Source of the DNA: Levilactobacillus bambusae
GTDB lineage: Bacteria; Bacillota; Bacilli; Lactobacillales; Lactobacillaceae
Length of the DNA: 38,363 bases
Direction of reading: 5' to 3'
Assembly: GCF_003124125.1 (NCBI RefSeq)
Contig: NZ_QCXQ01000006.1
Coordinates: forward strand, 185,848 to 224,210
Positions 19,766 to 28,469 of the stretch are shown here, piece by piece (position 1 is the first letter of the stretch; every line of letters starts with the position of its first letter). The position numbers and the translations under genes are program-made. The notes under the pieces are model-generated. The model was not told the origin of the DNA. It was given only the letters and a program-made list of their open reading frames with translations, and ran no database searches.

Positions 19766-20632
19766 ATGGAGGAAAAATCGGTATTTCACGTTAACGGTTA
19801 CGTTGGACTGATACTTGCCATTATTCTCATTATTACGGGTGTTTGGTTACTGGTTAGTGGAAACGAAGGGGATTCAACCGGGTTGATCTTGCTGGGAGCA
19901 TTTTTGGTAGTCATCGCATTGATTGCGACAAGCTCATTAACGATTGTGGCACCAAATCAGGCGAAGGTTTTGACCTTTTTTGGTGATTATATTGGAACCA
20001 TTCGGGAATCAGGATTATATATGACCGTGCCGCTAACGAACAAGGCAACGGTCTCCTTACGGGTTCGAAACTTTAATAGTCAAATTTTAAAGGTGAATGA
20101 TAAACGGGGAAATCCCGTTGAAATCGCCGCTGTGATCGTTTTTAAGGTCGTTGATACCGCTAAGGCGCTATTTGCCGTGGATAATTATGAGCAATTTGTT
20201 GAAATCCAAAGTGAGTCGGCGGTCCGCCATATTGCCTCTGAATATCCCTACGATAACTTTGACACGAATGATCGTGAGACATTGAGAAGCAATCCCACGG
20301 AGGTCTCCGAACGGTTAACAGAGGAACTTCAAGAACGGCTCAACGTTGCCGGTGTTAAAATTATTGAAACCCGGCTTACCCATTTGGCCTACTCCACTGA
20401 AATTGCGAGCGCAATGCTCCAGCGGCAACAATCATCCGCTATTTTGTCTGCTAGGAAGATTATCGTTGAGGGGGCAGTTTCTATTACAGAGGATGCCATT
20501 TCTCAATTAGAGCGGGATACGGGGATGACTCTGTCAGACGATAAAAAGTTACAGTTAATGAACAATATGATGGTGACAATTATTTCTGAACGTGGGTCAC
20601 AACCCGTGTTAAATACGACTGATATGAGTTAA
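19766..20632 (+). CDS. SPFH/band-7 domain membrane protein
   Basis: A 288-residue protein with two hydrophobic segments near the N terminus (about 11-31 and 38-58) followed by an SPFH domain (IVAPNQAKVLTFFGDYIGTIRESGLYMTVPLTNK...) and a C-terminal helical part. SPFH proteins (stomatin, prohibitin, flotillin, HflK/C) oligomerise in membranes and organise microdomains or regulate proteases. This one lacks the long flotillin coiled coil. AAGGAGGAAGG ribosome site. It is a single-gene unit, closed by a strong bidirectional terminator. The specific role is unknown. Confidence 0.85.
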   Translation: MEEKSVFHVNGYVGLILAIILIITGVWLLVSGNEGDSTGLILLGAFLVVIALIATSSLTIVAPNQAKVLTFFGDYIGTIRESGLYMTVPLTNKATVSLRVRNFNSQILKVNDKRGNPVEIAAVIVFKVVDTAKALFAVDNYEQFVEIQSESAVRHIASEYPYDNFDTNDRETLRSNPTEVSERLTEELQERLNVAGVKIIETRLTHLAYSTEIASAMLQRQQSSAILSARKIIVEGAVSITEDAISQLERDTGMTLSDDKKLQLMNNMMVTIISERGSQPVLNTTDMS

Positions 20633-20645
20633 GGGATGCTATGAT

Positions 20646-20689
20646 GCCACAAAATTAGGCCGCTGAAATCAGCGGCCTAATTTTGTGGC
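20646..20689. terminator. Long perfect hairpin, probable bidirectional terminator
   Basis: A 20-bp perfect inverted repeat (20646-20665 with 20670-20689) has loop AAAT. The GC-rich core AGGCCGCTG/CAGCGGCCT is flanked by AAAATT and AATTTT, so on either strand a T-rich stretch follows a GC stem. It separates the SPFH gene from the transporter cassette. Confidence 0.8.
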
Positions 20690-20702
20690 GTTTGAAAAAG
20701 GG

Positions 20703-20731
20703 TTGACTTTTTTGTTCGTTGCTTATATAGT
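20703..20731 (+). promoter_or_regulatory. Promoter of the ABC transporter/GntR cassette
   Basis: TTGACT (20703-20708) and TATAGT (20726-20731) are separated by exactly 17 bases, one of the best sigma-A promoters in the window. It lies 52 bases upstream of the first ABC gene and overlaps the inverted repeat at 20731-20750. Confidence 0.85.
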
Positions 20732-20750
20732 TAGTTACACAAGTAATTAA
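20731..20750. promoter_or_regulatory. Candidate operator for the GntR/YtrA regulator
   Basis: TTAGTTAC-ACAA-GTAATTAA is an inverted repeat with 8-base arms (7 of 8 matching) around a 4-base centre. It begins on the last base of the -10 and covers the expected transcription start. A TAC-N4-GTA core is, as I recall, a common layout for YtrA-type GntR sites. A GntR/YtrA gene lies in the same operon (23367-23741), so autorepression is the simplest model. Confidence 0.55.
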
Positions 20751-20782
20751 CTAATGGGGTAGCGAATAGAAAGGATGCTAAT

Positions 20783-21538
20783 ATGACACAACCAGTTGTT
20801 AAAGTTCGGGACCTTCGAAAGGTTTACGGGGGAAAGAACGAAAAATCATACGAAGCCTTAAAGGGAATCAATTTTGACGTTGAACCAGGAGAGTTCGTTG
20901 GAATCATGGGGGCATCAGGATCGGGGAAATCAACATTATTAAACCTGTTAGCCACACTTGATCAACCAACAAGTGGGTCCATTGAAATTAATGGTCGGTC
21001 GATTTCTAATTTATCGGGTAAGGAAACGGCAGATTTTCGGGCTAAGGAAATTGGATTTATCTTTCAGGATTTTAACCTGTTAGAAAATATGACTAATGCC
21101 CAAAATATGGCGCTACCACTATCTTTGCAAGGGAAATCAGCTAAGGTAAGCCAACCAGCTGTAAGGCAGGTTGCACATGAGTTAGGGATTGAAGCATTAC
21201 TAGATGCTTACCCAACTCAAATTTCGGGGGGGCAGAAACAACGGGTGGCAGCCGCCCGAGCGTTAGTGACTAATCCCGAACTAATTCTAGGGGACGAACC
21301 AACGGGGGCCTTAGATTCAAATAGTGCGCGGGAACTATTAGAAATGCTGCATGAAATTAATCAAGAACGACATGTACCCATTTTAATGGTAACCCATGAT
21401 CCGTTTTCCGCCAGTTACTGTCAACGGATTCTATTTATCAAGGACGGTCAAATCGGCCAGGAATTATCGGGTAACGGTGATGACCGGAGTACTTTCTATC
21501 AACGAATTTTAGACGAATTAGGAACGTTCGAACAATAA
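20783..21538 (+). CDS. ABC transporter ATPase, BceA/MacB-like
   Basis: ATPase of an FtsX-type ABC system, partner of the permease directly downstream. The 251-residue protein has Walker [10 protein letters not shown] (43-51), Q-loop glutamine (FQDFNLL, Gln95), signature ISGGQ (147-151), Walker [13 protein letters not shown] and H-loop MVTHD, all intact. The pattern fits the LolD/MacB/BceA group; BceA-type pairs remove or neutralise bacitracin, nisin-like peptides or lipid II complexes. First gene of the cassette behind a consensus-like promoter. No BceRS two-component genes are adjacent, so the substrate is unassigned. Confidence 0.9.
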
Positions 21539-21553
21539 GCACGGGGGGATAAC

Positions 21554-23332
21554 ATGCTAAAATTAGCGCTATCGGGGTTTGAGAGTCGATTTCGGGATTA
21601 TTTGGTGTTATTTTCCGGGTTAATCATGTCGAGTGCCATCTTTTATCTGTTTGAGAGTTTGGCCACAAATAACGCCTTTATTAAAGCGAATGCAATTGTT
21701 TCAGGGGGACAAATAATTTTTCAGCTTGGCGCCGTTTTATTGGGAATTATTACGTTTGTCTACGTGATGTACGCAAATTCGTTCTTACTCCAACTCCGTC
21801 AACATGACTATGGGTTGTTTATGATGTTAGGGGCCAAGCAAAGTCGAATTGGGCAACTTATCCTATTAGAAACATTAGTGGTCGGCGTCATGTCAACGAT
21901 CATCGGGGTTTTCGTCGGATTAGCTCTAACCCAAATTTTAGGAAATGCCTTAATGGCTCACTTAGGGCTTACTGTGCAACATTTTTCGGCGTTTAATGGA
22001 ACGGCAATTATTAGTACACTAGTTTTTTACCTAATTTTATTTGTGATTGCTGGTGGAATGAACGTTTGGCATATGACGCGAACCAGTGCTTTGAAGCTGC
22101 TGCAGAAAAATGATTTGGCAGATACGGTTGTTATTCGTCCATGGCGTCAGTTAGCCGAGATGATTATGGGACTTCTCTTGCTTGCCATAGGGTACACCGC
22201 GATGGCCTACCTTACGACGTTACAATTAACGGCAATTCCGATTGCCTTAGTGACCATTGTTTTAGGAACTTACTTTATTTTTCATTCGGGATGTACGTGG
22301 TTAATTGTCCGTATGCAAAATACCAATTTTGCCAGTCGGGGATTAAGAAGCTTTACCTTGGCGCAGTTGGCCTTTCGGATTAAGCAGTATACTAAAATCT
22401 TGTCCATTGTGACCATTTTATTTGCGATGGCCTTAGGGGCAATTACGGTTGGGTTGGGTTATCAGAACCAAATCCCAGAAATGGCACAAACAATGACCCC
22501 CTATACGATGGGGATTGCGAATCCAACGGTTAAACAGGTTCGTGACGTGAACCGGTTAAACTTGAGTGATAAAGTGAGCTACCAGCAAAAACAGGTGGGT
22601 AAACAGCTAGTTGTTAGCGACCGCCAGTTTACCCAACATCCGCTATTAGCGACTAAACCCATGGACTTAGATCATGGGGGAGCCAAGTTTGAAACTTACC
22701 GAATGACCCTTCACCAGTTGAAGGTTAATCCTTCCGGATACAGTATGATACAAAACGGGTCATTGCAGGCGCTGCCAGTCAAGGTGGTTTCGGACAGGCA
22801 ATTTAACCGTTTGGCTCAGCCAAAGACAACGCTGCTAATTTTCCGGGTTCGGGATTTGGCTCAGTCACAGTCAGATTTAAAGCGGCTGGCTGCAAGTTTG
22901 CCATACTCTGAGGATCAGCTTGGGGGAGCTTACTCACAGTATCAAATGGGAAAATCAGTCTTTGGCGGGATGGCCTTTATGGGGCTCTTTCTCGGAATTG
23001 CCTTCTTAGCTATGTTTGCTAGCTGCTTAATGTTCAAAATTTTGAGTGGTGCATCAACGGATCAGCGCCGATATGACATGCTGTATAAGCTAGGTGCACA
23101 ACGGCAACAATTATCAGCTGCCATGGCCAAAGAGATTGGGTTTTTATTCGCACTTCCTGGTATACTGGGAATTGTACATGTGTTGTTTGGTTTACAACTA
23201 TTCAAACCAATTATGTTAAATCCCTATAATCAGTTAGGGTTGCCATTTGGGATCTTTTTGATTTTATATGGTGTCTACTACTTGGTTACGGTATGGCTGT
23301 ACCGGCAGTTGGTCTTGACGAAACGCACTTAG
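21554..23332 (+). CDS. FtsX-family ABC permease, BceB-like
   Basis: A 592-residue permease with about ten membrane helices. They run roughly at 15-35, 53-73, 100-125, 142-165, 192-212, 218-240, 274-298, 475-500, 528-548 and 556-578. A loop of about 170 residues lies between helices 7 and 8. This 7 + large extracellular domain + 3 layout is that of BceB-type peptide-resistance transporters, although BceB is somewhat longer. The loop has no cysteine or obvious metal motif and probably sets substrate choice. It starts at an ATG with GGGGGG upstream, 15 bases after the ATPase gene. Confidence 0.88.
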   Translation: MLKLALSGFESRFRDYLVLFSGLIMSSAIFYLFESLATNNAFIKANAIVSGGQIIFQLGAVLLGIITFVYVMYANSFLLQLRQHDYGLFMMLGAKQSRIGQLILLETLVVGVMSTIIGVFVGLALTQILGNALMAHLGLTVQHFSAFNGTAIISTLVFYLILFVIAGGMNVWHMTRTSALKLLQKNDLADTVVIRPWRQLAEMIMGLLLLAIGYTAMAYLTTLQLTAIPIALVTIVLGTYFIFHSGCTWLIVRMQNTNFASRGLRSFTLAQLAFRIKQYTKILSIVTILFAMALGAITVGLGYQNQIPEMAQTMTPYTMGIANPTVKQVRDVNRLNLSDKVSYQQKQVGKQLVVSDRQFTQHPLLATKPMDLDHGGAKFETYRMTLHQLKVNPSGYSMIQNGSLQALPVKVVSDRQFNRLAQPKTTLLIFRVRDLAQSQSDLKRLAASLPYSEDQLGGAYSQYQMGKSVFGGMAFMGLFLGIAFLAMFASCLMFKILSGASTDQRRYDMLYKLGAQRQQLSAAMAKEIGFLFALPGILGIVHVLFGLQLFKPIMLNPYNQLGLPFGIFLILYGVYYLVTVWLYRQLVLTKRT

Positions 23333-23366
23333 TCCAAAGCTGATGGAAGAGGTGAAAAATGTCACC

Positions 23367-23741
23367 ATGCAATTTGATTTTAATAGCACCGATCCCCTCT
23401 ATCGTCAGGTAGCTGCTCAGATTGAGGATGCCATTTTTTCGGGGAGTTTTAGTGAGGGGAGTCAGGTTCCGTCAACAACGGAAATTTCAAAGGAATTTCA
23501 TATTAACCCTGCGACAGTATTGAAGGGAATGAACCTGCTCGTTGATCAAGGATTAGTTGAAAAACGCCGGGGGCTAGGGATGTTTGTTACCCGGGGCGCA
23601 CAGGAAACCATTCGAGAGGATCGGCGTAATCAATTTTTTAGTAATGATGTTCAAAAACTCGTTGCGGAGGCAAAGCAATTAGCCTTGTCTGCGGACGAGG
23701 TTTTGTCATTAGTTAAACGGGGGTATGAAGAACATGAGTAG
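23367..23741 (+). CDS. GntR-family transcriptional regulator, YtrA subfamily
   Basis: A 124-residue one-domain regulator: an N-terminal GntR winged helix (QFDFNSTDPLYRQVAAQIEDAI..., EISKEFHINPATVLKGMNLLVDQGLVEKRRGLGMFV, about 1-75) and a short helical tail of about 50 residues. That tail is the mark of the YtrA subfamily, which lacks a large ligand domain. YtrA-type repressors commonly control ABC transporter operons that respond to cell-wall antibiotics. The start at 23367 follows the GGAAGAGGTG site; the ATG at 23343 has none. It lies between two ABC systems and its end overlaps the next ATPase gene. Confidence 0.9.
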   Translation: MQFDFNSTDPLYRQVAAQIEDAIFSGSFSEGSQVPSTTEISKEFHINPATVLKGMNLLVDQGLVEKRRGLGMFVTRGAQETIREDRRNQFFSNDVQKLVAEAKQLALSADEVLSLVKRGYEEHE

Positions 23742-24612
23742 TGGAATTGAAATCCAACACCTATCTAAACAATACGAAAAAAAAACAATTTTACACGATA
23801 TTAATTTAAAATTTGAGCCCAAGACCATATATGGTCTGCTGGGTCGAAACGGGGCCGGAAAAAGTACGTTACTCGGGTTAATTAGCGACCGAATTTTTCC
23901 AACGCAGGGTCGGATACTGTTTAACGCAGAGATGATTCATGATAACGATCAGATCCTGGGGCAATTTTACCTGATGAGCGAGGTTGATTTATACCCCAAT
24001 CGGCGTCGAGTTCGACAGCTATTCAGGGATACGGAGCAGCTTTATGGTGAATTCAACCGAAAATATGCGGATGAACTAGTAAAAAAATTCGGTTTGGACG
24101 ATAGCAGCCAGTACGGTAAACTATCTACGGGTTACCGTACTATCGTTAAATTGATTATTGCGCTTTGCGTACCCGCAACCTATATTTTCTTGGACGAACC
24201 CGTTTTAGGGTTAGACGCTAATCACCGGGATATTTTTTACCGGGAATTAGTTGAGACGTATACGGAACGTCCTAGAACGTTTGTGATTTCAACCCACCTT
24301 ATCGAGGAAATTGCGAACCTGATTGAACAGGTGGTCGTGATTAAAAGCGGACGCGTCTTAGTTGACGACAGTAGCGAAGCCTTAATTGCAGAATCCTATG
24401 CGATTACCGGGCCCAAGAACGTCGTGGATTCGTTTGTTTCTGGATTAAACGTGATTGGTTCAGAAACGTTAGGAAACTTAAAGGCGGCCTATGTGTTTGG
24501 CGCACTCGATGATCGACCAATTCCAGATGTGATTACCATCGAACACATGGACCTCCAAAAACTGTTTGTCAACCTGACGAATGAGGAGGAAACCCAAAAT
24601 GACGCGCTTTAA
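23734..24612 (+). CDS. ABC transporter ATPase, YtrB/CcmA-like, with degenerate motifs
   Basis: A 292-residue ATPase for the ABC-2-like membrane protein encoded next. Walker A GRNGAGKST (37-45), Walker B YIFLDEPVLGLD (150-161) and the H-loop ISTHL (His188) are intact. The Q-loop position reads FYLMSEVDLYP, with Ser where Gln is usual, and the signature is LSTGY (130-134) rather than LSGGQ. About 90 C-terminal residues follow the ATPase core, as in YtrB-type proteins. It overlaps the GntR gene by 8 bases, the standard ytrA-ytrB arrangement. The start at 23734 is preferred over ATG 23725 on ribosome-site spacing. Confidence 0.85.
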   Translation: MSSGIEIQHLSKQYEKKTILHDINLKFEPKTIYGLLGRNGAGKSTLLGLISDRIFPTQGRILFNAEMIHDNDQILGQFYLMSEVDLYPNRRRVRQLFRDTEQLYGEFNRKYADELVKKFGLDDSSQYGKLSTGYRTIVKLIIALCVPATYIFLDEPVLGLDANHRDIFYRELVETYTERPRTFVISTHLIEEIANLIEQVVVIKSGRVLVDDSSEALIAESYAITGPKNVVDSFVSGLNVIGSETLGNLKAAYVFGALDDRPIPDVITIEHMDLQKLFVNLTNEEETQNDAL

Positions 24613-25357
24613 ATCTGTTTTTGCTTACACGTTTAACCGAATGATTCGTCAGTTGGCGGCAACTTTTATCATTGTCCTACTCTTCTTAGTTGCCGTTCCG
24701 CTTTTTTTTGCCGTCATTTCGGGAACCCTTTCCGAATATTCTATTATGGATGCGGTGAGAAGTGGTGTCTATCCCATGGTGGTGGGGTGGTTTTTGATTG
24801 TGATTGGTGCGGAGACCTACCCCCAGTTTAAGATGATGATTCAAAACGGGGTGTCGCGATTAACCTATTGGCGGGCCAAAGTTTGCGCCATTCTGCTAAT
24901 CACTTTCATTGGGACTATTTTCAACTTAGTTTATAATTGGGTTGCGAGGTTTTCAATTTCTGGGATTCACCTTGCCTATAGTCAGTTCTTTACCAACCCG
25001 GCAATGAATATTTTGGTGGACTTTGGGTTTGAATTTTTGATCTTAACGGCGGTTGCAATGACCGCCATGGCTGTTGGAAGTATCTTGAGTTTATTCTCAC
25101 GGCGGGGCCAATTTGCGTGGATTTTTCTGACGCCCATTGCGCTCATTGTGCTGCTGATTTGGCTGATAAACTTTCAAGAACGGGCCGGACTGCTTGATGA
25201 AACGTGGATTGTTAACTTTTTGAAGTTCCTGTTAGGTTTTCGGCAACAGTTTGGTCACTATAACCCGTTAGTGCCAGAGGTTACCCTGGTGATTTATTCC
25301 GGGATTATGGCGGCTGTTTCACGGTTCTTTTTCGGTCAATTAAAGATTAAGAAGTGA
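24599..25357 (+). CDS. ABC-2-type membrane protein, partner of the YtrB-like ATPase
   Basis: A 252-residue integral membrane protein with about six hydrophobic segments (near 17-42, 60-80, 98-118, 140-168, 178-196 and 222-244). No catalytic motif is seen. The start at 24599 is set by GAGGAGGA eight bases upstream and overlaps the ATPase gene by 14 bases, so the two are coupled. Family assignment comes from topology and context, not from a recognised signature. Function presumably export or protection at the envelope together with its ATPase. Confidence 0.75.
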   Translation: MTRFKSVFAYTFNRMIRQLAATFIIVLLFLVAVPLFFAVISGTLSEYSIMDAVRSGVYPMVVGWFLIVIGAETYPQFKMMIQNGVSRLTYWRAKVCAILLITFIGTIFNLVYNWVARFSISGIHLAYSQFFTNPAMNILVDFGFEFLILTAVAMTAMAVGSILSLFSRRGQFAWIFLTPIALIVLLIWLINFQERAGLLDETWIVNFLKFLLGFRQQFGHYNPLVPEVTLVIYSGIMAAVSRFFFGQLKIKK

Positions 25358-25375
25358 TTTTTGGGAGATGAGACA

Positions 25376-26119
25376 ATGGTATCAAGAGAAACGTTAAAAC
25401 GAGAAACCCGGAATCTTTATAGCGGACATTGGGGCCAGGCAATTCGGTTAAATATTCTGCCTATTTTGGGTCGGTTACTCGTTGGAATCCTATTAATGAC
25501 CTTGGCAGTTCTGGTCGCTTTCATAGTCGCATCACACCCAGACTGGCAGCACGTCATGAATCAAGCCTCTGGCAACGGGGACGGAACGTCTAACGGTGGG
25601 AACGGAGTAAGTTCATTTATTTCCGAGGCCATCGGAACTTTTATCTTAGTGGGGATTGGATATACCAGTCTTGATTGGTTTCGGTCGGGTCAGGCACCTG
25701 AAAAACCGTTTCGGGAGGCCTTTAGTACGTTTTCGTCCCGCTACTTTACGTCTACGCTGGCGATTTTTATCTTAACGTTTATTTTTACCACTTTATGGAG
25801 TTTGCTATTTTTAATTCCCGGTTTAATTAAGAGTATTAGCTATTCACAGGCTTATAATATTTACAAAGATAAGGTCGATCACGGTGATGTTAGCTATCTA
25901 GATTGCATTACGGAGAGCCGGCACCTTATGAACGGCCATAAGTGGGCATACTTCTGGCTCCAAATTAGCTTTTGGGGGTGGGGGATCTTGAGCCTTTGTA
26001 CGTTTGGAATTGGGTTTATTTGGCTGATTCCTTATATTAACGGCACCAACATTAACTTTTACCGGCACTTAGTTGACCAAGAAGATCAGACTAAGGCCAA
26101 CGTTCAGGCAGCAGCCTAA
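25376..26119 (+). CDS. DUF975 family integral membrane protein
   Basis: A 247-residue membrane protein with about five helices. The N terminus (SRETLKRETRNLYSGHWGQAIRLNILP) and the middle PGLIKSISYSQAYNIYKDK...ITESRHLMNGHKWAYFWLQISFWGWGIL segment are typical of DUF975. A flexible Gly/Asn-rich stretch (about 62-80) lies after the first helix. The family has no defined biochemistry. It follows the ABC-2 gene by 18 bases in the same direction, and the ATG at 25376 has GGGAG upstream, so it is probably the fifth gene of the cassette. Confidence 0.82.
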   Translation: MVSRETLKRETRNLYSGHWGQAIRLNILPILGRLLVGILLMTLAVLVAFIVASHPDWQHVMNQASGNGDGTSNGGNGVSSFISEAIGTFILVGIGYTSLDWFRSGQAPEKPFREAFSTFSSRYFTSTLAIFILTFIFTTLWSLLFLIPGLIKSISYSQAYNIYKDKVDHGDVSYLDCITESRHLMNGHKWAYFWLQISFWGWGILSLCTFGIGFIWLIPYINGTNINFYRHLVDQEDQTKANVQAAA

Positions 26120-26135
26120 AAATAAGTTGTTCGTT

Positions 26136-26200
26136 TAACCGGACGGAGTTCACCCGTTAAAGTCATGAGGCTTTGCAGGGGAGCTTTGGTCGGTTATTTT
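26136..26200 (+). terminator. Possible terminator after the DUF975 gene
   Basis: TAACCG (26136-26141) can pair with CGGTTA (26191-26196), which is followed by TTTTG; the inner region can form further imperfect pairs. Weak call. Confidence 0.4.
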
Positions 26201-26220
26201 GTTGCGTTTAGGGGCCATCT

Positions 26221-26248
26221 TTGAATGGGAACCGTTTCATGCTAGAAT
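26221..26248 (+). promoter_or_regulatory. Promoter of the DUF2785 gene
   Basis: TTGAAT (26221-26226) and TAGAAT (26243-26248) are 16 bases apart, and the -10 is extended by TGC. It lies 25 bases before the start codon. Confidence 0.65.
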
Positions 26249-26273
26249 TAAGTAAGAAATGGGGGAATTAACA

Positions 26274-27248
26274 ATGGATGATGGAATTAACGACCTGCAA
26301 TCCCAGGTAGCTAACTTAAAGGATCAGCTTGAACGTGGTGAAGTCTTTCAATCATTAGGGAGCCGAATTAAGACGATTCTTGAAGGTATCAGCTACCATT
26401 CAGCAACCCCCGTTAAGATGCCTTCGAGAAGTGATGGTGTCATTGAGCTTAGCGAATCACTAGAGGATCAAATGCAGGCTGAAACTTTAACGGGGATAAG
26501 CGACGAGGCCATTTTAAAATTAATGCAGCACCTGGGGTCCCCGAATCCCGATGTGCGGGATTCCCGGATTTACTTCTTTTTTAACGATGCTTTGCAGATG
26601 CACCTATTGGATTCTGAACAGTTACGCTTGATGGTCAACTACCTGCTGGATCCCCGGGTGATCTATTCGCACGTTTTAGAGGAGGAAAACGATGCCGTTT
26701 TTAAACGGTCCTACGATGTTTTGCTGCTGTCGGTGTTAACGTATGCCGATCGATCAGGGTATGATTTTTTGGATGATGAGACGGTAGATCGAATTGTGAT
26801 CGAAACCATCACGTATGCATTAGCCGAAAAGGATACGCGGGGGTTTGTGGGCAACCGGGGCTGGGCCCACACCTTCTCTCACATTCCTAATCTAATGGAT
26901 GACTTAAGTAAACGTCCCGAATTACCCCGGGCTGATAAATTGCTCATGATGGCGGCTTTTATTGAGCGTTACAAAACATTAACCACCCCGTTAATTTTTG
27001 GTGAGTCGGAACGAATTGCGGGTTACCTCGCTAATCTAGCCAATAAGAATTCATTGTACGAAGACTATTTACTAGTGGCGTTAAAGGAATGGCGCTTGGA
27101 ATTAACCGATCGGAACAAACCAACTACGGAGGGGGCCTGGAACCAAATCTTCAATCGGTCCCGACTGATGTCGGCCATGATGCTTCGTCATGATTTTTCC
27201 GATCGGGTTCAGCGTTACTTAAACTCCGTTATTGATTTTTTAGCTTGA
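26274..27248 (+). CDS. DUF2785 domain protein
   Basis: A 324-residue soluble, mostly helical protein. The family core is recognisable in DTRGFVGNRGWAHTFSHIPNLMDDLSK with the surrounding helices; the first 40 residues contain a short coiled-coil-like segment (LQSQVANLKDQLERGE). No enzymatic motif is known for the family. The start at 26274 has GGGGG eight bases upstream; the ATG at 26259 does not. It appears to be a single-gene unit with its own promoter. Confidence 0.8.
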   Translation: MDDGINDLQSQVANLKDQLERGEVFQSLGSRIKTILEGISYHSATPVKMPSRSDGVIELSESLEDQMQAETLTGISDEAILKLMQHLGSPNPDVRDSRIYFFFNDALQMHLLDSEQLRLMVNYLLDPRVIYSHVLEEENDAVFKRSYDVLLLSVLTYADRSGYDFLDDETVDRIVIETITYALAEKDTRGFVGNRGWAHTFSHIPNLMDDLSKRPELPRADKLLMMAAFIERYKTLTTPLIFGESERIAGYLANLANKNSLYEDYLLVALKEWRLELTDRNKPTTEGAWNQIFNRSRLMSAMMLRHDFSDRVQRYLNSVIDFLA

Positions 27249-27262
27249 TTTTAAGCTTTTTT
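27242..27262 (+). terminator. Short hairpin and T run at the end of the DUF2785 gene
   Basis: AGCTT/AAGCT with loop GATTTT overlaps the stop codon and is followed by five more T residues. The stem is short, so confidence is modest. Confidence 0.4.
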
Positions 27263-27283
27263 ATGGGCCCCTAGTTCAACAAA

Positions 27284-27292
27284 TGGTATACT
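27284..27292 (+). promoter_or_regulatory. Probable ddl promoter (extended -10)
   Basis: TGG-TATACT is an extended -10 lying 37 bases upstream of the ddl ATG. No good -35 is visible. Confidence 0.5.
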
Positions 27293-27329
27293 TAAGGCTA
27301 CGAAACCAAAACGATAGGAGATTTGCGGT

Positions 27330-28469
27330 ATGCAATCAGAGAAAAAATTACACTTGGGCCTTCTTTTTGGTGGCAATTCATCGGAGCATGACGTTTCAAA
27401 GCAGTCTGCACACAACATCTACGATGCTTTAGATAGGGATCGTTACGAGGTCAGCTTATTCTTAATGACCCGTGACGGCTTTATGATGAGCGATGCTGCG
27501 TCGCGGCGTGTTTTTGACGGTGAGCCCGAAGAAGTTGTTGTTGAAGAAGAAATGGCTAAGCTGGATCGGTCAAATCCATTAGCGCCCATTCAAAACTTAG
27601 CGGATGCTAAGGACATTGATGTTTTCTTCCCAATTATTCACGGGAACCTTGGTGAAGATGGTACCATTCAGGGATTGCTTCGCCTCTTACAAAAGCCATA
27701 TGTTGGTAGTGGTATTATGGCCTCAGCAATGTCGTTCGATAAGGATCAGACAAAACAAATGCTGACGATGCACGATATTCGGAATACGAAGTACGTGGTC
27801 ATTACCCCCGAAAACCGGGATGAATGGGACTATAATCGAATTCAAGAAGAACTCGGGGACTTAGTCTTCATTAAACCAGCTAACCAAGGGTCATCCGTGG
27901 GAATTCATAAGGTGACGTCAGAACAGGAATTTATTGATGGGTTAGCCGACGCCTTCCGGTATGACTATAAGATCTTAGTTGAAGAAGCTATTGAGGGGCC
28001 CCGGGAAGTTGAAATTTCGATTTTAGGAAACACCGACCCCAGTGCCTCTCAATTAGGTGCCATTGTTGTCCCTAAGGAGGATGCCTTCTACACGTACGAC
28101 AACAAGTTTGTGGATGCCTCACAGGTTGAGTTTGATGTCCCCGTCGATTTACCAGCTGAGTTAACGGCTGAAATTACCGATATGGGAATGCGGGCATATA
28201 AAGTATTAGGGCTACGTGGAATGGCGCGGATTGACTTCTTAGTTTCCGCAGCGGGAATTCCGTACTTAGGTGAAGTTAATACCTTGCCTGGGTTTACGAA
28301 CATTAGCTTATACCCACAGCTATGGGAAGCTTCAGGAATCAGTTATACGGATCTCATTGATGATTTGATTGAGTTTGCCATTCAAGAATTTGATGCCCAA
28401 AAGAAATTAGCTCATGACTTCGTGTCATTGGATGCTAATTCGGCGGCTGCCACTTATAAGCGTAAGTAG
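27330..28469 (+). CDS. ddl: D-alanine--D-alanine ligase family, predicted D-Ala-D-Lac type
   Basis: ATP-grasp ligase that makes the terminal dipeptide or depsipeptide of the peptidoglycan precursor. The 379-residue protein has LLFGGNSSEHDVS at the N terminus, FPIIHGNLGEDGTIQGLL, the ATP-grasp lysine IKPANQGSSVGI and the metal-binding GEVNTLPGFT near the C terminus. The omega-loop reads FYTYDNKFVD: Lys259-Phe260 take the place of Lys215-Tyr216 of E. coli DdlB. Phe here is the known mark of D-Ala-D-Lac ligases in vancomycin-resistant lactobacilli and Leuconostoc. AGGAG ribosome site; followed by a terminator. Confidence 0.95.
   Translation: MQSEKKLHLGLLFGGNSSEHDVSKQSAHNIYDALDRDRYEVSLFLMTRDGFMMSDAASRRVFDGEPEEVVVEEEMAKLDRSNPLAPIQNLADAKDIDVFFPIIHGNLGEDGTIQGLLRLLQKPYVGSGIMASAMSFDKDQTKQMLTMHDIRNTKYVVITPENRDEWDYNRIQEELGDLVFIKPANQGSSVGIHKVTSEQEFIDGLADAFRYDYKILVEEAIEGPREVEISILGNTDPSASQLGAIVVPKEDAFYTYDNKFVDASQVEFDVPVDLPAELTAEITDMGMRAYKVLGLRGMARIDFLVSAAGIPYLGEVNTLPGFTNISLYPQLWEASGISYTDLIDDLIEFAIQEFDAQKKLAHDFVSLDANSAAATYKRK

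Follow-up and report, generated by a model that had tools for sequence, protein, structure and literature searches.

In a 38,363-nucleotide (nt) stretch of the Levilactobacillus bambusae contig NZ_QCXQ01000006.1, hereafter the window, we found six plus-strand genes running from 20783 to 26119 in the order bceA, bceB, gntR, abc2A, abc2B and a DUF975 gene. In our view, with a probability of roughly 0.7, the locus is a self-repressed antimicrobial-peptide resistance operon in which a Bce-type ATP-binding cassette (ABC) transporter has been captured by the GntR regulator of abc2AB. We directly observed the gene content, a conserved promoter-operator, the co-occurrence of operator and GntR, and the absence of the kinase BceS. 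An earlier sequence-only reading had described five genes; the locus is real, and six genes are counted here. Genomes, loci and genera carry the codes G, L and g throughout, the window genome being G000. The features are as follows.

20703..20731, plus strand: promoter from the promoter scan, with -35 TTGACT, a spacer of 17 and -10 TATAGT.
20730..20751, plus strand: predicted GntR operator GTTAGTTAC-ACAA-GTAATTAAC, a palindrome of 22 base pairs (bp) over the -10, from the inverted repeat and the operator matrix, presumably bound by GntR.
20783..21538, plus strand: bceA-like ABC ATPase of 251 amino acids (aa), from the open reading frame (ORF) and domain scans.
21554..23332, plus strand: bceB-like permease of 592 aa with ten helices and a loop of about 180 residues after helix 7, from sequence, hydropathy and fold.
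23343..23741, plus strand: YtrA-type GntR repressor, from domain scans.
23725..24612, plus strand: ABC-2 type ATPase of 295 aa, nearest NCBIfam model PmtA, from domain scans.
24599..25357, plus strand: abc2B, probable ABC-2 type permease with six hydropathy peaks, its type judged from its place.
25376..26119, plus strand: DUF975 membrane protein, with a probable ATG start at 25376 (the ORF call had TTG at 25361).
20646..20689, no strand: perfect palindrome of 44 nt from the inverted-repeat listing, between an SPFH gene and the operon, ahead of the promoter.

Judged by sequence and predicted fold, the first pair is a Bce-type transporter. The homology of its permease to PsdB (6.8e-26, residues 12-316) and BceB (1.6e-21, residues 4-300) extends beyond the FtsX domain, the match to YtrF being 0.037 (residues 54-171), and the BceAB architecture proposed from the sequence alone, ten helices with a large loop after helix 7, agrees with the BceB fold. 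A YtrF-type identity of this permease was ruled out by sequence and fold, YtrF covering 187 residues of the model only. As in the DerAB class, the pair is a BceAB-like transporter apart from any BceRS, with no BceS in its own genome, and it is probably the ortholog of L. paracasei DerAB; its permease clade is separate from the BceRS-adjacent permeases, on long branches.

The YtrA-type GntR protein is, as had been noted, the only local regulator. It is short (a helix-turn-helix and about 50 residues), lies in an operon with ABC genes and has a long palindromic operator at the promoter; its start is probably at 23367, because most relatives align from residue 7-9. PmtR was among its best NCBIfam hits (50 of 200 bits) and PmtA was the best hit of the abc2A ATPase (106 of 350 bits), which recalls the Staphylococcus PmtR-PmtABCD system, but both are far under the curated cut-offs. 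That GntR controls the first pair as well is suggested by the fusion of operator and bceA promoter, which persists even in genomes with gntR at another site. Where gntR is linked, the bceA promoter has TTGAC..TATA joined to a palindrome that follows GTTARYTAC-AYRA-GTAAYTAAC apart from single-base differences, and this promoter frame is kept in 79 of 79 distinct operator promoters. A matrix built from 23 distinct 26-mers, with identical sites left out when scoring, split 115 bceA upstream regions into 90 scoring at least 27.8 bits and 25 scoring -12.6 or less (the 115 loci are not deduplicated, the distinct operator promoters being the 79); over 32 loci it gave 39 strand hits of at least 20 bits, with none in block shuffles. 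In 201 evenly drawn Lactobacillaceae genomes, a sample that includes loci used to define the operator, the exact pattern was present at 63 sites in 56 genomes, and its reversed-pattern control in 0 of 201. Of these sites, 28 are at bceA, 26 at gntR, 4 before another ABC pair and 5 at 2.6 kilobases (kb) before gntR, the last being assigned to bceA by spacing alone. Nine linked gntR genes lack a separate operator (matrix scores of -1.7 or less). In the window, GntR would bind the palindrome at 20730-20751. The two half-sites of an operator are mostly unlike: in 74 of 88 sites one half is of the GTTAGTTAC type and the other of the GTTAATTAC type, and at the differing base 13 have G in both halves and 1 has A in both, counts that ignore kinship.

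Among 40 GntR-wired relative loci from eight genera, the order bceAB-gntR-abc2A-abc2B was found in 26, bceAB-gntR in 5 and bceAB alone in 9, one of which (L165) stops at a contig end; this core order recurs, and DUF975 is not a conserved member. No gntR was beside bceAB in the 19 loci without GntR wiring, two of which (L100 and L141) end less than 300 bp after bceB. In G039, G085 and G244, bceA has the operator without an adjacent gntR, and gntR is elsewhere with abc2AB; in the even sample, all seven GntR-wired genomes with an unlinked gntR keep the bceA operator and have gntR at another place (G039, G078, G085, G135, G160, G183 and G187, with G135 assigned by the operator matrix). Such arrangements bear on the proposal of an integrated sensing module, in which one of the two transporters, the Bce-like or the ABC-2 pair, detects the peptide and passes the signal on to GntR in place of flux sensing by BceS. 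The 26 loci with bceAB, gntR and abc2AB together favour it, as does the short effector region of YtrA regulators (PMC4494728; this and the other papers are cited from excerpts), which would let a partner supply the cue. However, a fixed gene set is not needed, since bceAB is apart from gntR-abc2 in 8 of the 40 loci (the ninth ends with its contig) and 5 g1 loci have gntR without an adjacent abc2, and for L. paracasei PMC10858260 assigns sensing to ApsAB and resistance to the transporter DerAB, so that we consider such a module unlikely. Its premise, that the transporter must signal through BceS, is doubtful: the likely relative DerAB, a resistance transporter, lacks a dedicated kinase and is under ApsRSAB control (PMC10858260). 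Of the BceS-bearing genomes, 30 gave coordinates for bceB, and in all 30 the contig is free of BceS within 20 kb of bceB; the BceS genes that were read adjoin other, distant permeases. The DerAB precedent and the separation of bceAB from BceS therefore call for a different switch rather than a new route of flux sensing.

The lack of BceRS noted at the locus extends to all of G000 (1.97 Mb, 39 contigs, completeness 99.72%), where neither the reading of kinases nor a BceS profile revealed a cognate BceS-type kinase. HATPase hits alone were dropped for BceS detection as too unspecific, and a profile from three BceS-type kinases, which recovers the solved BceS at 1.5e-58, was used instead; no score exceeds 88 bits in G000 or, across seven further GntR-wired genomes, 115 bits. 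Eight of the ten HATPase neighbourhoods in G000 were read (L067-L074, leaving a 641-aa frame, the size of WalK, and a 677-aa frame), and none of the eight is BceS-like; we take their products to be five membrane sensor kinases, one LiaS-like kinase, and gyrase- and MutL-type proteins. One of them, L071 (G000:C21:36500-42500), has a two-component pair beside a gene that presumably encodes a D-alanyl-D-alanine carboxypeptidase-like protein.

The same opposition of kinase and operator was seen across the 201 genomes, in which a BceS match (1e-40) was found in 82, the operator pattern in 56, GntR (1e-25) in 98 and the permease (BceB match of 1e-60 or better) in 124. We counted 52 genomes as GntR-wired: 46 in a first count, five of them by operator-to-gntR spacing alone, and G153, G181, G198, G203, G218 and G227. 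Strong BceS (1e-80 or better) was present in 0 of these 52 versus 47 of the 72 other genomes with the permease, weak BceS in 1 (G198) versus 2 (G043 and G162), and no BceS in 51 versus 23. An earlier set of 39 genomes, overlapping this sample, gave BceS in 0 of 21 GntR-wired and 16 of 18 other genomes; a Fisher p on 0/39 versus 30/34 was set aside, since the rows are related. The BceR-like motif, whose consensus we take to be TNACA-N4-TGTNA, was present in 17 of the 25 non-operator bceA promoters (0.3 expected), or in 15 of 22 genomes after dropping same-genome doubles and L062, and in 0 of the 90 operator-bearing ones (0.8 expected), which is suggestive of its presence at most bceAB promoters outside GntR wiring. 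At L062, counted among the 25, a transposase-like sequence recognised by eye replaces the usual bceA start region. Upstream of bceA in L106 and L167 (g3) there is neither a GntR operator nor a BceR-like motif, and G133 and G107 are without BceS; another inverted repeat, around TAGTGTA, points to a third kind of wiring there. These data speak to the possibility that an unrecognised two-component system elsewhere activates the operon while GntR acts only on abc2AB. G000 does have about six sensor kinases (including the unread 641-aa frame) and the LiaS-like one, but none that was read is BceS-like, the profile finds none, operator-bearing bceA promoters are free of the BceR-like motif, and nine linked gntR genes are without an operator; we hold this to be quite improbable.

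In a permease tree of 60 rows, the 41 GntR-wired rows fall on one side of a branch with support 99/99, and the operator state changes once, whereas the BceS state, known for 51 rows, changes four times. The kinase-to-GntR pattern is one evolutionary event, because the tested GntR-wired permeases form one clade. The BceRS-adjacent permeases are far off on long branches, with joins that the tree program calls unsure; the window permease groups with g3 (support 92), not g1. Beyond the family but within the order, the operator was located at 7 sites in 7 genomes, every one before gntR-abc2A and none before bceA. Clostridial L108, L111 and L112 likewise have it before gntR (31.5-32.3 bits), and in L107 and the Vagococcus loci L109 and L110 the operator forms are weak only (7.4-8.4 bits). 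Sites outside the family are consistent with an old gntR-abc2AB unit that bceAB joined later. Within the family, gntR is elsewhere in 19 of the 47 non-GntR-wired genomes with strong BceS, and in G095, G150 and G047, with both promoters read, the operator is at gntR and none at bceA. Four further family operator sites precede an ABC-2-like pair (L170-L173), and for the ATPases of L170 and L173 the nearest family is TIGR03740, of the lantibiotic-protection kind (8.2e-66 and 6.3e-65, both below its cut-off). We are somewhat inclined to believe that once in Lactobacillaceae a DerAB-type transporter passed from two-component control to that of a YtrA-type GntR already running abc2AB, with loss of BceRS-type sensing, that an intracellular repressor instead of flux sensing now meets peptide attack, and that the regulon spread to lantibiotic-protection-like ABC pairs. 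The bceA promoter would have come under GntR in the ancestor from which a single permease clade descends, where bceAB may have been inserted between the operator and gntR.

In the operon thus envisaged, a GntR dimer would sit on the palindrome, covering the -10 and the start region of the only promoter, and keep all six genes low. Envelope attack, most likely by peptides acting on the lipid II cycle, would generate an intracellular cue by which GntR binding is lost; the Bce-type transporter would then shield lipid II cycle intermediates, the ABC-2 pair would export or clear peptides, and newly made GntR would shut the operon off again. We infer the repression, its relief by envelope attack and the transported peptides.

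Several points weigh against this explanation. The tree holds one independent pair (sign test p 1) and one change, so the genomes cannot be counted as independent cases. One GntR-wired genome, G198, has a weak BceS homolog (9.6e-54), and 23 of the 72 other permease-bearing genomes have neither BceS nor demonstrated GntR wiring, 17 of them in g18, g19 and g37, two each in g3 and g33, and one each in g9 and g35; the 17 genomes of g18, g19 and g37 have a BceB homolog and, at the cut-offs used, no BceS, GntR or exact operator pattern. In addition, G154 (g33) has the BceR-like motif yet no BceS, and the motif failed its control, the exact form being present within 400 bp in 0 of 3 BceRS-adjacent bceA promoters (L135, L136, for which the bceA start used is doubtful, and L138); the motif is therefore suggestive only. 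In L138, which is psd-like and where a site is to be expected, a one-mismatch form was seen by eye, and the apsAB promoter of L. paracasei may lack the site, because apsAB is not induced there in the excerpt of PMC10858260. The probable orthology to DerAB rests on position and on the homology of lp_2740 to L. casei OrABC that PMC8772861 states; OrABC and DerAB would be the same transporter. Finally, phenolics lower expression of the L. plantarum counterpart, lp_2740 being printed as 2.0 with p-coumaric acid (PMC8772861), so induction by envelope attack stays an assumption.

The gene order singled out as noteworthy by the sequence-only reading was already published for L. plantarum WCFS1, in which lp_2739-lp_2744 likewise comprise a BceAB-like pair, the YtrA-type lp_2742 and a second ABC system in a predicted regulon, Lp_2742, and went down together 2- to 7.2-fold with gallic acid (PMC4600210); they also went down with other phenolics, apart from the p-coumaric acid value above (PMC7278804, PMC8772861). 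A small ORF, lp_2741, separates the first pair from the regulator there and has no counterpart in the window, and the excerpt names no DUF975 protein. In L085-L088, an ORF of 91-97 aa occupies the position of lp_2741, that of L085 having no NCBIfam hit. A YtrA multidrug regulon has been projected in lactic acid bacteria (PMC3616900), and YtrA motifs take the form of long palindromes, located for the most part at ABC operons (PMC4494728). DerAB of L. paracasei BL23, listed as an extra Bce-like transporter (PMC11753529), is likewise a BceAB-like resistance transporter outside two BceRS modules, but it is controlled by ApsR, with ApsR-P binding PderA, and cross-regulated by PsdR (PMC10858260), whereas the window pair is under a predicted GntR operator. 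BceB of the B. subtilis BceRSAB system shares sequence and fold with the window permease, but no BceS was found in the window genome. The B. subtilis ytr operon encodes the YtrA regulator, an ABC-2 pair and an FtsX-type pair, and thus resembles the window in having a YtrA-type GntR over both kinds of pair, the FtsX-type pair of the window being BceAB-like. The arrangement is thus known, and what is new is the family-wide pattern of bceAB promoters under a GntR operator or, in the majority of the others, a BceR-like motif; a kinase-to-GntR switch was not found in our literature search, which is no proof of its being unpublished.

DUF975 is a frequent neighbour and not a conserved part of the unit. 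It follows abc2B in the same direction in the window and in the unlinked gntR-abc2 units L155 and L175, is convergent in five loci (L091, L151, L152, L166 and L168), and is co-directional in 0 of 59 other tabulated bceAB loci; its predicted structure has a mean predicted local distance difference test score (pLDDT) of 55.7 and a predicted template modelling score (pTM) of 0.29. Chance adjacency of unrelated genes gathered in one direction may partly hold for DUF975, but for the operon as a whole it is hardly credible, given the core five-gene order in 26 of 40 loci from eight genera and in L. plantarum. The abc2B product had no Pfam or NCBIfam match and is weakly conserved (about 25-34% in most relatives). 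Around the operon (window 19766-28469) are an SPFH gene before it and DUF2785 and D-Ala-D-Ala ligase genes after it; SPFH and DUF2785 also flank the operon in the g3 loci L184 and L185, and the five loci read from the window's own genus (g1) have bceAB-gntR only. The palindrome at 20646-20689 is likely a two-way terminator separating the SPFH gene from the operon; the terminator scan did not report it.

If the explanation holds, the same kind of resistance pump would be under a kinase in some lineages and a repressor in others, offering a natural comparison of two switches. The lp_2739-lp_2744 regulon would gain a testable promoter-operator, a likely function in peptide resistance and an evolutionary origin, and the operator would point to further members of the regulon.

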